IMG/VR virus record: IMGVR_UViG_3300033148_007493
Span: 1 to 25,415 of that record
Reading direction: 5' to 3' (one strand)
DNA from: a virus
Length of the DNA: 25,415 nt
This document shows positions 1,442 through 12,610 of this stretch, in pieces. A model generated the notes under the pieces. The model had not been told where the DNA came from. It ran no database searches and was given only the letters and a program-made list of their open reading frames with translations. The stretch's first letter is position 1, and each line of letters opens with the position of its first letter. The position numbers were made by a program, and so were the translations under genes.

Positions 1442-1608
1442 TCTTTTACTCCTTTATCTTCTAAATATTTGCGTAATTCAGATATTTCTTTTATTTCCTT
1501 TACTATTTGTATTATAGCAACAATTAAAAGAATAGCCGGTATCAATCTATTTATAGGGAAAAAAACAGTAATTAATGCCATAACTATAAGTATTAATATT
1601 GCAACCAC
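1438..1608 (-). CDS. Small two-helix membrane protein, GTG start, 56 aa
   Basis: A 56-residue frame begins with GTG at 1608, preceded by a run AGGGGGG a few bases upstream that serves as ribosome site. Residues 1-16 (VVAILILIVMALITVF) and 22-36 (LIPAILLIVAIIQIV) are strongly hydrophobic and separated by a short loop FPINR. The last 20 residues are charged and helical. The shape resembles class II holins or small inner-membrane phage proteins, but it does not sit beside a visible lysis gene, so holin is only one possibility. The TGA overlaps the next ATG (ATGA). Confidence 0.6.
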   Translation of the reverse strand: MVAILILIVMALITVFFPINRLIPAILLIVAIIQIVKEIKEISELRKYLEDKGVKE

Positions 1609-1633
1609 ATTTCCCCCCCTTTTGTTTATTATT

Positions 1634-1785
1634 ATTGCCCACAGGTAGAGGCCATTCTCCTCTACACGGCAACATTAGGTCGTTATTGCCTCGAAAGCCT
1701 GCCTTGAACTTTCTATCGAGAATTAATCAAGGTAGCCATCCCTATCATAATTCTCTAGTGTCTCTCTTCCACCACTGTGGGCAAT
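1634..1785 (-). ncRNA. Structured RNA element, copy A, tRNA-like outer frame
   Basis: Positions 1775-1785 and 1634-1644 form a perfect 11-bp terminal stem. Read on the - strand, UG follows, then a 3-bp D-arm-like hairpin (GUG at 1772-1770, loop GAAGAGAGA, CAC at 1760-1758). A variable interior of about 90 nt comes next. Last is a 7-bp hairpin with a 7-nt loop (1665-1645, loop AGAAUGG) that abuts the 3' strand of the terminal stem, as a T-arm abuts an acceptor stem. Copy B at 4445-4592 has the same frame with compensatory base changes. The interior contains an 8-bp stem (GAGAAUUA/UAAUUCUC), a GAAAG/CUUUC hairpin and a GGCAA/UUGCC hairpin. It lies between two small genes of the leftward operon. 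I do not recognise the family. Confidence 0.72.
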
Positions 1786-1796
1786 TTAAAATTACA

Positions 1797-1964
1797 TTAA
1801 TACCCTTCTATTATCTTTCCCTTCAACCTGCTTTTGTAAAGTTCATTTAATCTGTCCCAGACATTAACATTTCTGGCATAAATAATTAGATGTTTCAAAT
1901 TAATTTCATATCTTTCATTAGAAATTAAATCAGGTAAACATTTTCTTTGTTTTTTATTTTTCAT
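1797..1964 (-). CDS. Small basic hypothetical protein, 55 aa
   Basis: A 55-residue frame starts at ATG 1964, preceded by AAGGAAA about 7 bases upstream. It begins with a highly basic MKNKKQRK segment and continues as a probable helix-rich domain containing NLKHLIIYARNVNVWDRL. The family is not recognised. It ends 11 bases before structured RNA copy A, so the RNA would be the 3' flank of this gene in the operon transcript. Confidence 0.6.
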   Translation of the reverse strand: MKNKKQRKCLPDLISNERYEINLKHLIIYARNVNVWDRLNELYKSRLKGKIIEGY

Positions 1965-1984
1965 AATCTATTTCCTTTTTTAAA

Positions 1985-2257
1985 TTATATGCTCCAATTT
2001 GGATATTCGTTATTATTTTGGCTTTCGTTGTTTCTCCATTTTTCTATAATTCTAACAGAATCATTAATTACAGAAATAAGGAATTGTTTATCTTCTTCAT
2101 TTTCTGCTTTCATAGAAATTCTACGACCAGAACATTCTAACCATCTATTAATTATACTAATTAGAAATTCTGGGTATTTAATTATTTCTAAACAATTTTC
2201 AAGTTTATCTATAGCTTCATATAAAATATCTTTTATCTCAGTAATTTTTTCACTCAT
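1985..2257 (-). CDS. Hypothetical helical protein, 90 aa
   Basis: I chose ATG 2257 (MSEKITEIKDILYEAI) because TTGGAAGA precedes it at a proper distance. The ATG 45 bases upstream has no ribosome site. The product is 90 residues, mostly helical and amphipathic, with a Cys at about residue 41 and an Asn-rich tail. No domain was recognised. It is the first gene downstream of the DnaA-box region and a polypurine tract at 2303-2345, and is transcribed away from them. Confidence 0.62.
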   Translation of the reverse strand: MSEKITEIKDILYEAIDKLENCLEIIKYPEFLISIINRWLECSGRRISMKAENEEDKQFLISVINDSVRIIEKWRNNESQNNNEYPNWSI

Positions 2258-2302
2258 TGTTTCTTCCAATTTTAAAATTTTCGATACTACAGTAAAAAAC
2301 AA

Positions 2303-2490
2303 AAAGAAAAAAGAAAGAAAGAACCAAAGAAAGAAAAAAGAAAAATAGTGTGTTTTATTTTATTAATAAATTTAAATACTTTATTTTCTTTGGGGAGTAG
2401 CCCCTACAGTAACCCCTATTGTAGGTTATCCACAATCTATCTACAAGTTATCCCCAATTAAAATAAAGATATGTCAAAGAGCGAAGAATT
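2303..2490. other. Origin-like intergenic region: polypurine tract, AT-rich stretch, DnaA boxes
   Basis: The region has a run of A/G at 2303-2345 and an AT-rich stretch at about 2350-2392. It then has a perfect DnaA box TTATCCACA at 2426-2434. A near copy TTATCCCCA lies at 2448-2456, both inside a 12-bp direct repeat GTTATCCNCAAT spaced 22 bases apart (2425 and 2447), with a weaker third copy near 2409. Small inverted repeats (CTACA/TGTAG, GGGG/CCCC) flank it. It lies beside the replisome organizer gene, as phage origins often do. Origin function is inference; the repeats could instead be a repressor operator. Confidence 0.5.
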
Positions 2491-2496
2491 TTAATA

Positions 2497-3170
2497 CTAA
2501 CCGCCTTTATCCCTAAATTCATAACCACAATTATAACACAAACTTTGGTCTATTTCAATTTTTTTATTACATTTTGGGCACTTTAAGGGTTTTTTAAGTT
2601 TTAAAAACTCTCTGGGTTTACCTCCTGCCCTTTCTATTGCCCAAACCAAGCATGCATAATAGTCACTTTTATACTTTTTACCTTTTGCCATCTTATATGA
2701 TGAAAGTATTTCTAATGCCTCTCTTGTAAGTTTTTCTCCATAGTTAGTACAAAGTTTATTATATTCTTCTTCAGTTAATCGTACAGCCGGAAAATATTCT
2801 TTCTTTTTTTCTTGTTTATCTTCAGTGGGTCTATTTTGGATAGTTTATGTTTTTCTAATAAATTTATTATGTTTTGCATTAAGTTAGATTTACTATTAAA
2901 ATTGATTTTACCATATTGAAACTTGCAATAATCGATTATAAACCATTTTCCATTCGGTAATACTTCTATATTATTGTTTGTTTTTTTGATAAAACTATCA
3001 AAATCTATTTTCGTACCTATTTGAAATTCAGCAAGTTCCTTATCTGCATCCCATACTCCCACAGCATCGCAGTTTGATGTAATATAATACCAGAAAGTCT
3101 TTTCTTCGGGTAACAATCTCCGGAACCAGTCTTTTTTCCAGATGTCTGCGTCGTGTAATTTTTTTCTCAT
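2497..3170 (-). CDS. Phage replisome organizer (replication initiation) protein with C-terminal zinc ribbon, split by a frame change
   Basis: The N-terminal frame (3170 to 2775) carries WKKDWFRRLLPEEKTFWYY and CDAVGVWDADKELAEF, typical of the N-terminal winged-helix part of phage replisome organizers. It ends just after a lysine-rich linker. The -1 frame then continues with VRLTEEEYNKL, YGEKLTREALEILSSYK and GKKYKSDYYACLVW, the usual C-terminal part of the same family, and finishes at 2497. The switch point is at or near the homopolymer at 2804-2810 (seven A on the coding strand), where one more A would restore a single frame. Added at the end is a zinc ribbon CPKC-x9-CYNC. The protein would recruit helicase at the nearby origin. 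The C-terminal part alone also looks like a 64-aa frame from 2691. Confidence 0.75.
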
Positions 3171-3427
3171 TTTTTATACTTTTCCCACATGTTTTTATCT
3201 ATTTTTTTCTTATAAATATTTTCATGTACATGGAAATATCCGTCTTCAAGTAACCAAACTTGAGACATATAGGAAGGAATTTTTGTAGCTTTTTCAATTT
3301 CTCTGGTATCAACATAACCATTAGTATACAACATTTTTTTAGAAAAGTCAAGAACTTTTTGCTTCTTTCTTAATATTTTGTAATCTTCAAAATCTTCATT
3401 ATAGTTATCTATTACCATATCACACAT
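3167..3427 (-). CDS. Hypothetical protein, possible winged-helix, 86 aa
   Basis: An 86-residue frame whose stop overlaps the replisome organizer start (ATGA), so the two are coupled. Residues about 37-66 (YVDTREIEKATKIPSYMSQVWLL by pattern: a helix, a turn and a second helix followed by GYFHVHENIY) could form a small winged helix, but no family was recognised. Its position next to a replication initiator fits a replication accessory or regulator. The function is unassigned. Confidence 0.6.
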   Translation of the reverse strand: MCDMVIDNYNEDFEDYKILRKKQKVLDFSKKMLYTNGYVDTREIEKATKIPSYMSQVWLLEDGYFHVHENIYKKKIDKNMWEKYKK

Positions 3428-3453
3428 TTTAAAATCTCAAATATATATTTCAT

Positions 3454-3642
3454 TTATTCTCTTTTTAATTCATTAAAAGGATATGCATTTTCCATATAAA
3501 ATTTTGTGGCAGCAAATGTAACGGCATCTTTTATCTCATAAAATGTTAATTTCCCTTCTGAAAGAATAGAATAGAATAAATTCACTAAATTACGAAATTC
3601 CGGTTCATTTAAATATCTTGTTTTCTGCTCTTCGAAATTCAT
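3454..3642 (-). CDS. Small conserved-type phage protein, 62 aa
   Basis: A 62-residue helical protein beginning MNFEEQKTRYLNEPEFRN and containing DAVTFAATKFY. The pattern of a short acidic N-terminus followed by a DAxxFAA helix resembles small hypothetical proteins found in many phage replication regions, with no known role. The start has a purine-rich GGAGAT-like ribosome site. It is cotranscribed with its neighbours. Confidence 0.6.
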   Translation of the reverse strand: MNFEEQKTRYLNEPEFRNLVNLFYSILSEGKLTFYEIKDAVTFAATKFYMENAYPFNELKRE

Positions 3643-3656
3643 TTTATATCTCCATT

Positions 3657-3926
3657 TTATCTATAATTTTCTTTAAACCATTTTATATAATTTTCTATAT
3701 TATTATTGTCGAATGCCTCGGGAACCATCCAGCCCCAATCTGTTTCAGGGCTGATACCATTATCAGATAGCCATTTCAGATATTTGCCAAGATGATCAAC
3801 CTTATTTTTTGTGTTGCATCTTATATCCAAATATTTCCCTAAATGTTCATGGTCATTAAGACATATCAAACATTTTTTATTTTTACAAAATGGGTGGTTT
3901 AAGCGAGGATAATTTAATTTTAGCAT
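3657..3926 (-). CDS. Hypothetical protein with Cys/His-rich N-terminus, 89 aa
   Basis: I prefer ATG 3926 (MLKLNYPRL) because TGAGG lies six bases upstream. The alternative ATG 3938 has no ribosome site. Residues about 12-28 contain CKNKKCLICLNDHEH, a Cys/His cluster that could bind zinc or be a degenerate recognition element. The remainder has two similar LGKYL segments (residues about 29 and 46) and an acidic C-terminal helix. The family is not recognised. Confidence 0.58.
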   Translation of the reverse strand: MLKLNYPRLNHPFCKNKKCLICLNDHEHLGKYLDIRCNTKNKVDHLGKYLKWLSDNGISPETDWGWMVPEAFDNNNIENYIKWFKENYR

Positions 3927-4012
3927 TTTATGCCTCATTTCTATTTATTTTTTTTGATATATTCGCCATCTTTCTTCTTTTCCTAAATAAAAATAATATA
4001 GAATCTTTCATC

Positions 4013-4390
4013 TTATAAAATCCTTTCAATAAGTTTTATTTTTTTATACATTTCAGTGCCCTCGTGCCAATTTCTATATCTACTTATTATCAACATTCCT
4101 TTTTCTAAGGGAGAACATAATAATAAGGGTGGTAATTTAACTTTGCCTTTCGCATTAACTTTCCATATTTCAAAGTTGTTTGGTATAGTAAAATTATAGA
4201 AATGTGTAAGAAATTCCAAAGCCGTTTTTAAATTAGAAAATACAGTTATATTATAACCATTTTCTGCACACCATCGGGGGCTTTTTACATATTTTTTTGT
4301 AGAATATGTAACGCAAGGCTTGCCTCGAATAATACTCGATATTAGCTCACCATTTTTATTGTAAACTACTTTAATTTTTTCTTTTTTCAT
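4013..4390 (-). CDS. Hypothetical phage protein, paralogue of the 6580-7014 product, 125 aa
   Basis: A 125-residue protein with a strong AGGAGG ribosome site. It shares an ordered pattern with the product at 6580-7014. Both have a KVV start, a V-x-Y strand, K[YF]V[KR][SA]P, A-x-x-GY-x-[IL]T-x-F, A-L-x-F and a closing G-T-x-M-[FY]-K-K segment. Such short alpha/beta proteins with a GY-x-x-T-F motif are common in phage accessory regions and have no established function. Structured RNA copy B lies just upstream of its leader. Confidence 0.65.
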   Translation of the reverse strand: MKKEKIKVVYNKNGELISSIIRGKPCVTYSTKKYVKSPRWCAENGYNITVFSNLKTALEFLTHFYNFTIPNNFEIWKVNAKGKVKLPPLLLCSPLEKGMLIISRYRNWHEGTEMYKKIKLIERIL

Positions 4391-4444
4391 TAAAAACCTC
4401 CTTTTTTTACTACATTTTAGGATTTTTCTACCATTCTAAAAATT

Positions 4445-4592
4445 ATTGCCTGCCGGTACAGGCCATTCTCCTGTACACGATTGACTTCACAGTCTATTGC
4501 CTACTTTGAGAAAAATGTGGCCATTATTTTCCTCATTTCATGCATAGTCAATCTACCTGATATAGCGTCTCTCTTCCGCCACGGCAGACAAT
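4445..4592 (-). ncRNA. Structured RNA element, copy B, tRNA-like outer frame
   Basis: The terminal stem is 11 bp (4582-4592 with 4445-4455). It contains one U-G wobble on the - strand that would be a C-A mismatch on the + strand, so the RNA is read leftward. A GCG/CGC D-arm-like hairpin (4579-4577 with 4567-4565) has the same loop GAAGAGAGA as copy A. A 7-bp hairpin (4476-4456) has the same 7-nt loop AGAAUGG. Relative to copy A, pairs change together: three in the terminal stem, one in the D-like stem, and one G-C to C-G in the T-like stem. The interior differs. An 8-bp GAUUGACU/AGUCAAUC helix encloses a 10-bp hairpin with a G-U pair. It sits between two small operon genes. Confidence 0.74.
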
Positions 4593-4621
4593 TAATCGTT
4601 CATTCTGGTCATCCCGTTCAT

Positions 4622-4924
4622 TTAATGGATTTCATTTGCTGATTTCTTGAAATCATACCAATTAATTGTATCATCTAATCTGTTTTTTGATACTTCTTTT
4701 TCGAACTCATTTTCAAACCAATCTTTTGCCTTCTGTCTGGTAGTAAAATTGTTTACATTAAGCCCTGTATACAATTCTGTTATCACCCAGAAATTATTTT
4801 TTCTTTTACCTACGGCAAATTGATAGCCGTACTTCTCGCCAAGAAAATAACCTTGCATTTTTACAAAACTATAATTTTGTTTTTTCATATCGAAACATCT
4901 TATATTATATTCTACCTTTTTCAT
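4622..4924 (-). CDS. Hypothetical phage protein, 100 aa
   Basis: A 100-residue soluble protein with an AAGGGG ribosome site. The middle (residues about 25-70) reads as a small beta sheet followed by a helix: GYFLGEKYGYQFAVGK, FWVITELYTGL, then TTRQKAKDWFENEFEKEV. The strand-rich core plus Thr-starting helix is a common layout for small phage proteins of unknown role. The family is not identified. Its 3' end lies 29 bases before RNA copy B. Confidence 0.65.
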   Translation of the reverse strand: MKKVEYNIRCFDMKKQNYSFVKMQGYFLGEKYGYQFAVGKRKNNFWVITELYTGLNVNNFTTRQKAKDWFENEFEKEVSKNRLDDTINWYDFKKSANEIH

Positions 4925-5195: not shown

Positions 5196-5822
5196 TTACT
5201 TCCCCCTAAAATTATATTTTTCTTTTATTGGCAAACCCTCAATTTCTCTCCATATTATATAAATATCTTTTAAAAACATTTTTATCATGTATCTTAATGC
5301 AGCTCTATGTCTGTGCATTTTAGATTTACCCCATCCTTCTTTTTCTTTTCTCTCTTTGTATTCATAATAATATCTCGAATATTTGTTTTTGTCAATTAAA
5401 AATTTTTTGCCTAAACCGTCTAAAAGTTTAGTTTTTAGAAATGCATTATAGCATCTTTTTTGGTTTTTTTGTAATCTATCTGCTTTCCCGTTAGTTACTC
5501 CCAAACCGCAAAATTTCCATAAACTACTTATAGTATCAGCTTTGTGAATATCTACTTCTGAAAGTAAAACAGCAATTGTTTTTTCTCCCAATCCTTTTAT
5601 TTCTATTAATTTTTTATATAATAAAAAATTTTTTAGTAACTTTTTAATATAATTTAATGTTTCTTTCTCTAATTCTGTAAATATTTTTTCATATCGCCCG
5701 AATAATTCCAATCCGCTATCAAAATCTCCATATGTGTTAATTTTATTGTTCATTATAATTCTCATTTTTTGGTAATAATAATAAAGTCTAACAACCTTTT
5801 TAAGTTTTTCTTTATTATTCAT
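5196..5822 (-). CDS. IS110-transposase-related (Transposase_20-like) protein lacking the DEDD nuclease domain
   Basis: A 208-residue protein. Residues 1-70 form a probable coiled coil. A helix-hairpin-helix-like segment follows with IKGLGEKTIAVLLSEV (about 74-89), then SSLWKFCGLGVTNGKAD (about 99-115), and a C-terminal RHRAALRYMIKMFLKDIY...WREIEGLPI segment. This matches the C-terminal domain of IS110-family recombinases and a group of stand-alone proteins of about 200-250 aa in uncultured microbes and their viruses. The N-terminal RuvC-like DEDD domain is absent. Where active IS110 enzymes have the catalytic Ser-Gly, this protein has Asn-Gly-Lys. It is therefore unlikely to transpose and may be a DNA- or RNA-binding derivative. 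A structured RNA lies 24 bases upstream. Confidence 0.72.
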   Translation of the reverse strand: MNNKEKLKKVVRLYYYYQKMRIIMNNKINTYGDFDSGLELFGRYEKIFTELEKETLNYIKKLLKNFLLYKKLIEIKGLGEKTIAVLLSEVDIHKADTISSLWKFCGLGVTNGKADRLQKNQKRCYNAFLKTKLLDGLGKKFLIDKNKYSRYYYEYKERKEKEGWGKSKMHRHRAALRYMIKMFLKDIYIIWREIEGLPIKEKYNFRGK

Positions 5823-12539: not shown

Positions 12540-12600
12540 GGGGATGGTTAGGATTGACAGCCTTTTTGGCTGGACACCGGTTCGAATCCGGTCATCTCCA
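12540..12600 (+). tRNA. tRNA-like element lacking a D-arm, UUU in the anticodon position
   Basis: A 7-bp acceptor GGGGATG (12540-12546) pairs with CATCTCC (12593-12599, one G-T pair) and is followed by A. A perfect T-arm ACCGG-TTCGAAT-CCGGT precedes the 3' acceptor strand directly. CAGC-CTTTTTG-GCTG makes an anticodon-like arm of only 4 bp with TTT at 34-36. Only 11 bases (GTTAGGATTGA) lie where the D-arm should be. GTTAGGA resembles the 3' part of tRNA-Glu/Asp D-loops, so the 5' half of the D-stem seems deleted. Total 61 nt; no encoded CCA. The next gene's GGAGGG follows at once. It could be a degraded tRNA or a tRNA mimic. Confidence 0.6.
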
Positions 12601-12610
12601 GGAGGGAAAA

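Follow-up and report, generated by a model that had tools for sequence, protein, structure and literature searches.

A putative phage RNA family with a tRNA-like shell, a variable core and no match in Rfam 15

Introduction

Transfer-messenger RNA (tmRNA, RF00023) combines a tRNA-like shell with another RNA domain in place of the anticodon arm, and in the engineered tRNA scaffold for RNA production a foreign RNA is put in the same place. The bacterial Y RNA YrlA is likewise a non-coding RNA with tRNA mimicry. Here we analyze two RNAs of similar appearance, copies A and B, encoded in a viral DNA of 25,415 nucleotides (IMG/VR virus record IMGVR_UViG_3300033148_007493, positions 1 to 25,415; this whole stretch is hereafter called the window), and their relatives in other phages and in bacterial genomes. 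They share the shell and the replaced anticodon arm with tmRNA but possess a D-stem, lack a conserved core and have no Rfam match. The Rfam model of YrlA does not match the window copies, and, in contrast to the engineered scaffold, the family RNAs are natural, phage-borne and have a remodelled elbow.

Phages also supply working tRNAs against tRNA degradation, thereby countering tRNA-cutting defences, as one report describes (PMC11555353). The RNAs described there are similarly phage-borne and of tRNA type, and family RNAs sometimes lie beside tRNA genes; the phage tRNAs of that report are functional, whereas family RNAs have no anticodon.

Results

Two structured RNAs in the window

The first-pass annotation of the window claimed a structured RNA in two copies on the - strand, at 1634-1785 and 4445-4592, each with an 11-bp terminal stem, a hairpin with loop GAAGAGAGA and a 7-bp hairpin with loop AGAAUGG adjoining the terminal stem. 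Both copies were located there, with every one of these parts. The predicted folds (-57.2 kcal/mol for the 152 nt of copy A and -48.1 kcal/mol for the 148 nt of copy B) were more stable than any of 200 shuffles in each case. The parts are listed below, each with its basis; R1 is the covariance model introduced in the next section.

1634..1785, - strand: copy A, whole RNA, 152 nt (fold z -5.31; 80.3 bits with R1, of whose own alignment it is a member)
1775..1785, - strand: copy A, 11-bp terminal (acceptor-like) stem, 5' strand (fold, covariation)
1758..1774, - strand: copy A, U8-G9-like bases and D-like arm with loop GAAGAGAGA (fold, covariation, shell/core parsing)
1666..1757, - strand: copy A, variable core, 92 nt (shell/core parsing; z -2.15 when folded alone)
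1645..1665, - strand: copy A, 7-bp T-like arm with loop AGAAUGG (fold, shell/core parsing)
1634..1644, - strand: copy A, terminal stem, 3' strand (fold, covariation)
4445..4592, - strand: copy B, whole RNA, 148 nt (fold z -4.06; 79.1 bits with R1, of whose own alignment it is a member)
4582..4592, - strand: copy B, 11-bp terminal stem, 5' strand (fold, covariation, compensatory change relative to L010)
4565..4581, - strand: copy B, U8-G9-like bases and D-like arm with loop GAAGAGAGA (fold, shell/core parsing)
4477..4564, - strand: copy B, variable core, 88 nt (shell/core parsing)
4456..4476, - strand: copy B, 7-bp T-like arm with loop AGAAUGG (fold, shell/core parsing)
4445..4455, - strand: copy B, terminal stem, 3' strand (fold, covariation, compensatory change relative to L010)

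By-eye comparison of the two copies recovered the same five two-sided pair changes that had been given as a minimum (three in the terminal stem, one in the D-like stem and one in the T-like stem); one further terminal-stem pair is altered on one side only. Copy B and its near relative at locus L010 differ at 3 of 148 bases, of which positions 7 and 142 make up a terminal-stem pair with compensatory replacement of U-A by C-G. The interiors of about 90 nt had been called wholly different. They are indeed unrelated cores, apart from an 8-nt block, AGGCAATA, that is common to both. No 3' CCA is encoded directly after the terminal stem of either copy.

Rfam 15 has no match for the window copies, either in a scan of the whole window or at E up to 10 over positions 1500-4700, where tmRNA model RF00023 was also without a match; scans of 29 of the other 64 loci likewise gave no match at the RNA. 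The class thus stays as unfamiliar as it had been proposed to be. No family model of group I introns or other Rfam ribozymes matched in the window and 29 further loci, and by-eye inspection revealed no tmRNA-type tag frame. ARAGORN made no tRNA call in the window; ARAGORN and Rfam call none of the RNAs examined except at L012, where an ARAGORN tRNA-Tyr call overlaps the family RNA. The literature searched, with most subscription journals outside its scope, contained no description of such an RNA. The RNAs look like a new family, unmatched in Rfam 15, whose structure is well supported and whose function is still a guess.

Relatives in phages and bacterial genomes

Copies were gathered by pattern scans and by covariance model R1, built from alignment A3 of 26 sequences that include both window copies. 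The exact two-loop pattern with an 80-110-nt gap matched 11 contigs of the viral collection. Nine of them, judged from terminal stems and T-arms, hold seven distinct real copies, and the remaining two matches are due to chance. More copies were added from scans with the D-arm (58 stretches), the T-arm (25) and a looser pair pattern (16), false matches being told by a missing second half or a low model score. R1 matches 33 of the 34 records behind the loci (32 virus, 1 plasmid and 1 genome), the genome alone being unmatched. Nearly every virus record has one clear copy; G025 has a second, weaker and partial one, and the window has two. No convincing DNA match to either of two queries was found in the phage collection.

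In a Bacilli sample, 10 of 398 genomes match R1 at E <=0.01; six matches are convincing, and the other four (L099-L102), with no T-arm seen by eye, were rejected. In the bacterial family of genome G167, 39 of 394 genomes match, the weakest perhaps by chance. Over the 7.6 kb that were aligned, the record of L077 is identical to the Paenibacillus rhizovicinus plasmid NZ_CP048288, and G714 carries the RNA at the corresponding site. Since the G167 family contains G714 with that Paenibacillus RNA, it is referred to below as the Paenibacillus family. With filters stricter than in the small searches, 2 of 291 genomes of a Clostridia-centred sample give candidate matches of about 25 bits and 0 of 296 of an Actinomycetes-centred sample match R1. 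Eight pattern matches in bacterial genome contigs all score 14.9 bits or less with R1 and were hence taken as chance; L027, L048 and L059 (about 24 bits, ordinary T-loop) were not included.

The resulting alignment A5 contains 66 copies: A and B, 34 from other viral contigs, one from a Paenibacillus plasmid and 29 from bacterial-genome loci. Doubtful members L053 and L045 were retained. Identical or near-identical copies were omitted (L006, L010, L013, L020, L025, L034, L040, L041, L044, L052, L061, L064, L079, L080, L110, L112 and L121), as were L135, L137 and the truncated L063; later finds such as L260 are absent. Some close relatives remain (L033/L042, L009/L111, L115/L116 and L129/L130).

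Covariation of the shell

The shell common to the 66 copies has three parts: an acceptor-like stem of 7 bp, extended to 11 bp in the window, a D-arm of tRNA-Leu type and a T-like arm of 6-7 bp. In A3, 98.2% of 437 shell cells are paired and 16 of 18 pairs show two-sided change, compared to 74.9% and 9.2 in shuffles; none of 500 shuffles reaches any of five measures, and shifting the partner by 1-3 columns lowers pairing to 32-47%. In A5, which was aligned to R1 itself and is therefore fitted to the model, 97.6% of 1102 cells are paired and 15 of 17 pairs covary, again with 0 of 500 shuffles reaching these values. The homologues with covariation that the annotation had proposed to seek with a covariance model thus exist, and its claim of selection on RNA structure is borne out. 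Shell helices of the 66 copies contain 37 G.U and 8 A.C pairs and 22 other mismatches (four misparsed rows included); the excess of G.U over A.C favours an RNA read from this strand.

tRNA-Leu likeness and a remodelled elbow

A resemblance to tRNA-Leu, originally offered as a hint, is strengthened by relatives that combine D-arm GGAAUAGGUAGACGC, T-loop UGCAAAU and an A after a 7-bp acceptor. The D-arm type UGGCGGAAUAGGUAGACGC of relatives can be set beside UGGUGGAAUCGGUAUACACG in a tRNA-Leu(UAA) called by ARAGORN at one of the analysed loci, and beside other known tRNA-Leu D-arms. Family RNAs share with tRNA-Leu the 7-bp acceptor and the T-arm stacked on it and, in part of the family, an ordinary elbow and the A after the acceptor. 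They differ in the T-stem of 6-7 rather than 5 bp, in the altered D- and T-loops of the window type and in having, instead of the anticodon arm, mostly unrelated cores of 15-226 nt. D-loop GG with the usual T-loop motif is present, or nearly so, only in ordinary-elbow relatives; the window copies have GAAGAGAGA and AGAAUGG, and an 11-bp stem, in both copies, where a tRNA has a 7-bp acceptor with an unpaired discriminator.

The copies form a series. At one end, D-arm GGAAUAGGUAGACGC occurs with T-loop UGCAAAU on a 6-bp T-stem; in the middle, D-arm GGAAUAUAGACGC or GGAAGAUAGACGC occurs with UGAAAGU and similar T-loops on a 7-bp T-stem; in the window type, D-arm GGAAGAGAGACGC occurs with a mostly AGnnUGG T-loop, also on a 7-bp T-stem. 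The class labels are rule-based, and three misparsed rows land in the middle class. D-loop length agrees with T-stem length in 59 of 62 copies (L114, L124, L053 and L054, with misparsed or doubtful T-arms, were omitted from this test). A C at the third T-loop position is found in 15 of 15 copies with D-loop GG and in 4 of 47 without it (Fisher p 6e-11, which is overstated because the rows share descent). Of the 15 copies with D-loop GG, 13 have A as the base after the 7-bp acceptor; in the window T-loop type the figure is 12 of 36 (A 12, C 10, G 8, T 6). The loss of D-loop GG and of the T-loop motif, noticed earlier in the window, is common to most viral copies, with both loops altered jointly. 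Such joint change is what an altered tRNA D-loop/T-loop contact would look like. Along the series it is as if tRNA identity had first been kept and then lost, an order read from the relatives and not from a rooted tree; from the same series we infer that the shell descended from a tRNA-Leu-like gene.

The variable core

Few cores are alike between copies. The surroundings of the site are 92% identical between L022 and plasmid NZ_CP118109 of Paenibacillus urinalis, with flanks and shell in common, but the two RNAs measure 108 and 210 nt (with the acceptor taken as 7 bp) and contain different cores. Conversely, L033/L042 and L094 have a common core (80% over 59 nt) but differing elbows. The suspicion of a swappable insert has thus held up from both directions. 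T-arm-like hairpins, five in total, were found in 4 of 66 cores, compared to a mean of 0.05 and a maximum of 1 in 300 shuffles.

An antisense or guide function was considered and rejected: among 34 copies with at least 5 kb of surrounding sequence, the longest exact core complement in the own locus never exceeded the longest of 20 shuffles. Nested inside the core of the family RNA at L109 (8480-8669, - strand) is a tRNA-like unit that has an acceptor and a T-arm of its own, and one of the five hairpins above is part of it; a second such unit was seen by eye.

Presence in related phages

Among prophage loci of the Paenibacillus family whose terminases are 74-96% identical to that of L109, the RNA is present in 1 of 16 (L255); among four more, with 42-46% identity, it is present in one (L260). 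It is present in 0 of 49 viral loci whose terminases are relatives of the L031 terminase; these 49 are the ones with about 1.9 kb or more upstream of the terminase among 80 loci kept, out of 127 terminase relatives, and a more distant copy could be missed. Closely related prophages thus mostly lack the RNA, which makes it accessory, and the 0 of 49 and 1 of 16 rule out a constant terminase partner.

The EAR (epsC, RF01735) RNA, a family known from polysaccharide operons, is an antitermination element. It occurs in the same late-leader region of Paenibacillus-family prophages as a neighbour, not a homologue. Rfam detected it in 6 of 12 of these prophages, 2.3-4.8 kb upstream of the terminase as calculated from coordinates, and model R2, built from those six, matches in 10 of 16. 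EAR lies 127-150 bases upstream of the family RNA in L260 and L109 (borderline), about 160 in L154 and 424 in L133, which places four copies less than 0.5 kb downstream of EAR, one of them by a borderline match. Interchangeable equivalence of the two RNAs is ruled out by R2 and Rfam, which find both side by side; they are neighbours with separate roles. R2 finds no EAR in the window or in the 37 viral loci with the RNA, and Rfam finds none at the window copies. A partial R1 match at L245 (15.1 bits) overlaps the EAR RNA and was left uncounted.

EAR upstream of a prophage terminase was seen at L242, L243, L245, L246, L248-L252, L254, L257, L260, L154 and L133. Prophage late leaders also contain a mini tRNA-like element of about 44 nt (acceptor, about 9 bases with GG, T-arm) at L242, L248, L251, L253 and L257 and, by eye, at L249, L250, L254 and L154; an EAR match lies just upstream in all but L253. 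A scan of 935 kb found 14 tRNA-like structures, compared to 0-1 per shuffle in five shuffles; some are ordinary tRNAs and one is inside a family RNA. The succession of EAR and minihelix in several prophages presents late leaders as rich in anticodon-less tRNA-like elements, of which this family is the elaborate form.

Genomic neighbourhood

Both window copies are located between genes of a leftward operon, whose named products include an Erf-like annealing protein, a Cas4/CRISPR-associated family match, NinG/Rap and a transposase-like protein. The terminase and portal genes are on the opposite strand; the best ten phage-collection matches of the terminase are only 26-29% identical. Elsewhere, too, family RNAs are mostly embedded between same-strand genes. 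The 63 copies with sufficient flanking sequence have 107 small same-strand open reading frames (ORFs) in the 2.5 kb upstream; of these, a sigma-70 family model matched 13, ArpU 10, RinA 6 and a positive-control sigma-like factor 6; one protein may match several models. Large downstream ORFs (86 of 88 scanned) include terminase large subunits (TerL) and portals. Five clusters of packaging-region proteins (HNH/terminase small subunit (TerS), a second TerS, two TerL and portal) were checked by profile through representatives of each. In 28 of 66 copies, a minimum because only clustered proteins enter the count, they occur within 7 kb downstream; all 50 members lie on that side (+82 to about +7000 bases) and none upstream. 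The HNH/TerS cluster, from 22 loci, is two families joined by the fusion-like L017 protein, 10 TerS-type (L017 included) and 12 HNH-type; 7 of 7 tested TerS and 5 of 5 tested HNH members matched, the latter also giving a weaker match to a single terminase small subunit profile. The candidate at L012 matched no terminase family. Terminator-like hairpins were found within 120 nt downstream of 9 of 65 copies, compared to 32 of 1320 random positions (2.4%). At L022 the RNA lies near dnaN and a helicase gene.

Several copies adjoin tRNA or tmRNA genes, or their T-arms. The window contains at 12540-12603 (+) a 64-nt tmRNA-like element with the middle missing, which scored 51.3 bits in the whole-window Rfam scan. 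The match is absent when only 351 bases are scanned, and the element alone folds no better than shuffles (z -0.96). It consists of acceptor GGGGATG/CATCTCC, a small hairpin and an ordinary T-arm and ends just 5' of the ribosome-binding region of a trypsin-like peptidase gene. At L053 (3385-3825) a phage tmRNA is directly followed by the doubtful family member. Shortened tRNA-like elements of 56-67 nt are found near the RNA at L140 (9360-9426), L154 (8454-8516) and L011 (11613-11668). At L078 (about 2885-3030) the promoter-like sequence ACACCTGTGGTAGAAT stands directly before the RNA and is repeated directly after it.

In three phages a protein that resembles only the C-terminal domain of IS110-type transposases is encoded no more than 4 kb from the RNA: in the window (5196-5822, - strand), at L004 (2785-3780) and at L056 (2813-3511). 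All three are Transposase_20-like, two of them with scores under the Pfam cutoff; the window protein also matches PHROG 4285. IS110 elements use bridge RNAs, and a link to the family RNA is conceivable.

Discussion

We are very confident of the architecture, a tRNA-derived shell with an exchangeable core. As to function, we favour, with a probability of roughly 0.42, a tRNA-derived scaffold that presents exchangeable cargo RNA as a decoy or effector against host factors. The shell (acceptor-like stem, D-arm and T-arm) would have come from a tRNA-Leu-like gene and would fold in three dimensions like the acceptor/elbow half of tRNA; with no anticodon the RNA cannot decode. In place of the anticodon arm there would be a cargo RNA, exchanged between phages or quickly diverging among them. 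The RNA would be transcribed and kept stable as accessory cargo of phage operons, often ahead of packaging genes, with the core as the probable active part, exposed to host proteins, conceivably defence or tRNA-acting factors first of all. Such a scaffold fits the exchange of cores, the accessory presence, the nested tRNA-like pieces and the anti-defence phage tRNAs reported in PMC11555353.

Several observations weigh against the scaffold. Folding energies of the cores are on average only slightly better than those of shuffled sequences (mean z -0.68, 8 of 63 below -2), and only 4 of 66 contain hairpins resembling tRNA arms. Loops appear more constant than stems, but viral copies were found with exact loop patterns, which makes this constancy partly a selection effect; stems were not constrained by the scan patterns except in the T-arm scan, and genome copies found by the model do show other loops. 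The position ahead of packaging genes suggests, instead, a role in the expression of that operon.

The best rival is that the shell serves as an RNase P and RNase Z substrate in long transcripts, separating leader from message, with the core as filler. The frequent location between same-strand genes and the other anticodon-less elements in related late leaders, such as the 44-nt minihelix, speak for it, as does the fact that acceptor plus T-stem minihelices are minimal RNase P substrates. In the window copies, however, the elbow is without the T-loop motif and the 11-bp stem crosses the expected cut sites; four extra acceptor pairs are found in 6 of 36 window-class copies (15 others, with 1-2 extra, are at about chance level). 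Filler would also not explain a core kept similar between different elbows. We regard such processing as unlikely; it suits minihelices better than window copies, and both functions could hold in different members. Still less probable is an operon leader controlling transcription, for instance a processive antitermination RNA. Packaging genes downstream of at least 28 copies, sigma-like, ArpU or RinA-type activators just upstream, the excess of terminator-like hairpins and the four copies close behind EAR would all agree with it, but EAR, where present, would already provide that function beside the family RNA, close relatives do without the RNA, and the window copies are inside a leftward operon away from packaging genes.

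A packaging RNA acting with the terminase, a counterpart of phi29 pRNA, would account for the HNH endonuclease, terminase subunit and portal genes that in the same 28 or more cases follow the RNA and never precede it. It is very improbable given that most phages with closely related terminases lack the RNA, so that it is no constant companion of the packaging ATPase, that in the window it is on the other strand from the terminase and that at L022 it lies near dnaN and a helicase gene. Marginally less credible yet are decaying tRNA-Leu genes with random insertions: tRNA-Leu likeness and the shortened elements nearby would be expected, but 97.6% pairing of the shell and extensive compensatory change, even between near-identical phages, contradict decay. 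Because shell pairing and compensatory changes persist, selection acts on the fold.

The tRNA-derived scaffold with exchangeable cargo could be extended to a general display platform, a tRNA-shaped chassis for many exchanged counter-defence RNAs, whose rebuilt elbow may take the RNA out of translation and tRNA processing; we consider this extension somewhat unlikely. Whatever its function, the family has no match in Rfam 15 and is defined well enough by a covariance model for annotation. Natural D-loop/T-loop elbows rebuilt by coordinated change make the rules of tRNA tertiary contacts testable outside translation. A constant shell with exchanged cores points towards modular RNA delivery by phages, and conflict with the host is suggested by the accessory and variable character of the RNA. 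Because cultured Paenibacillus include carriers, experiments are possible. If the display platform were true, a single chassis would deliver many counter-defence RNAs.

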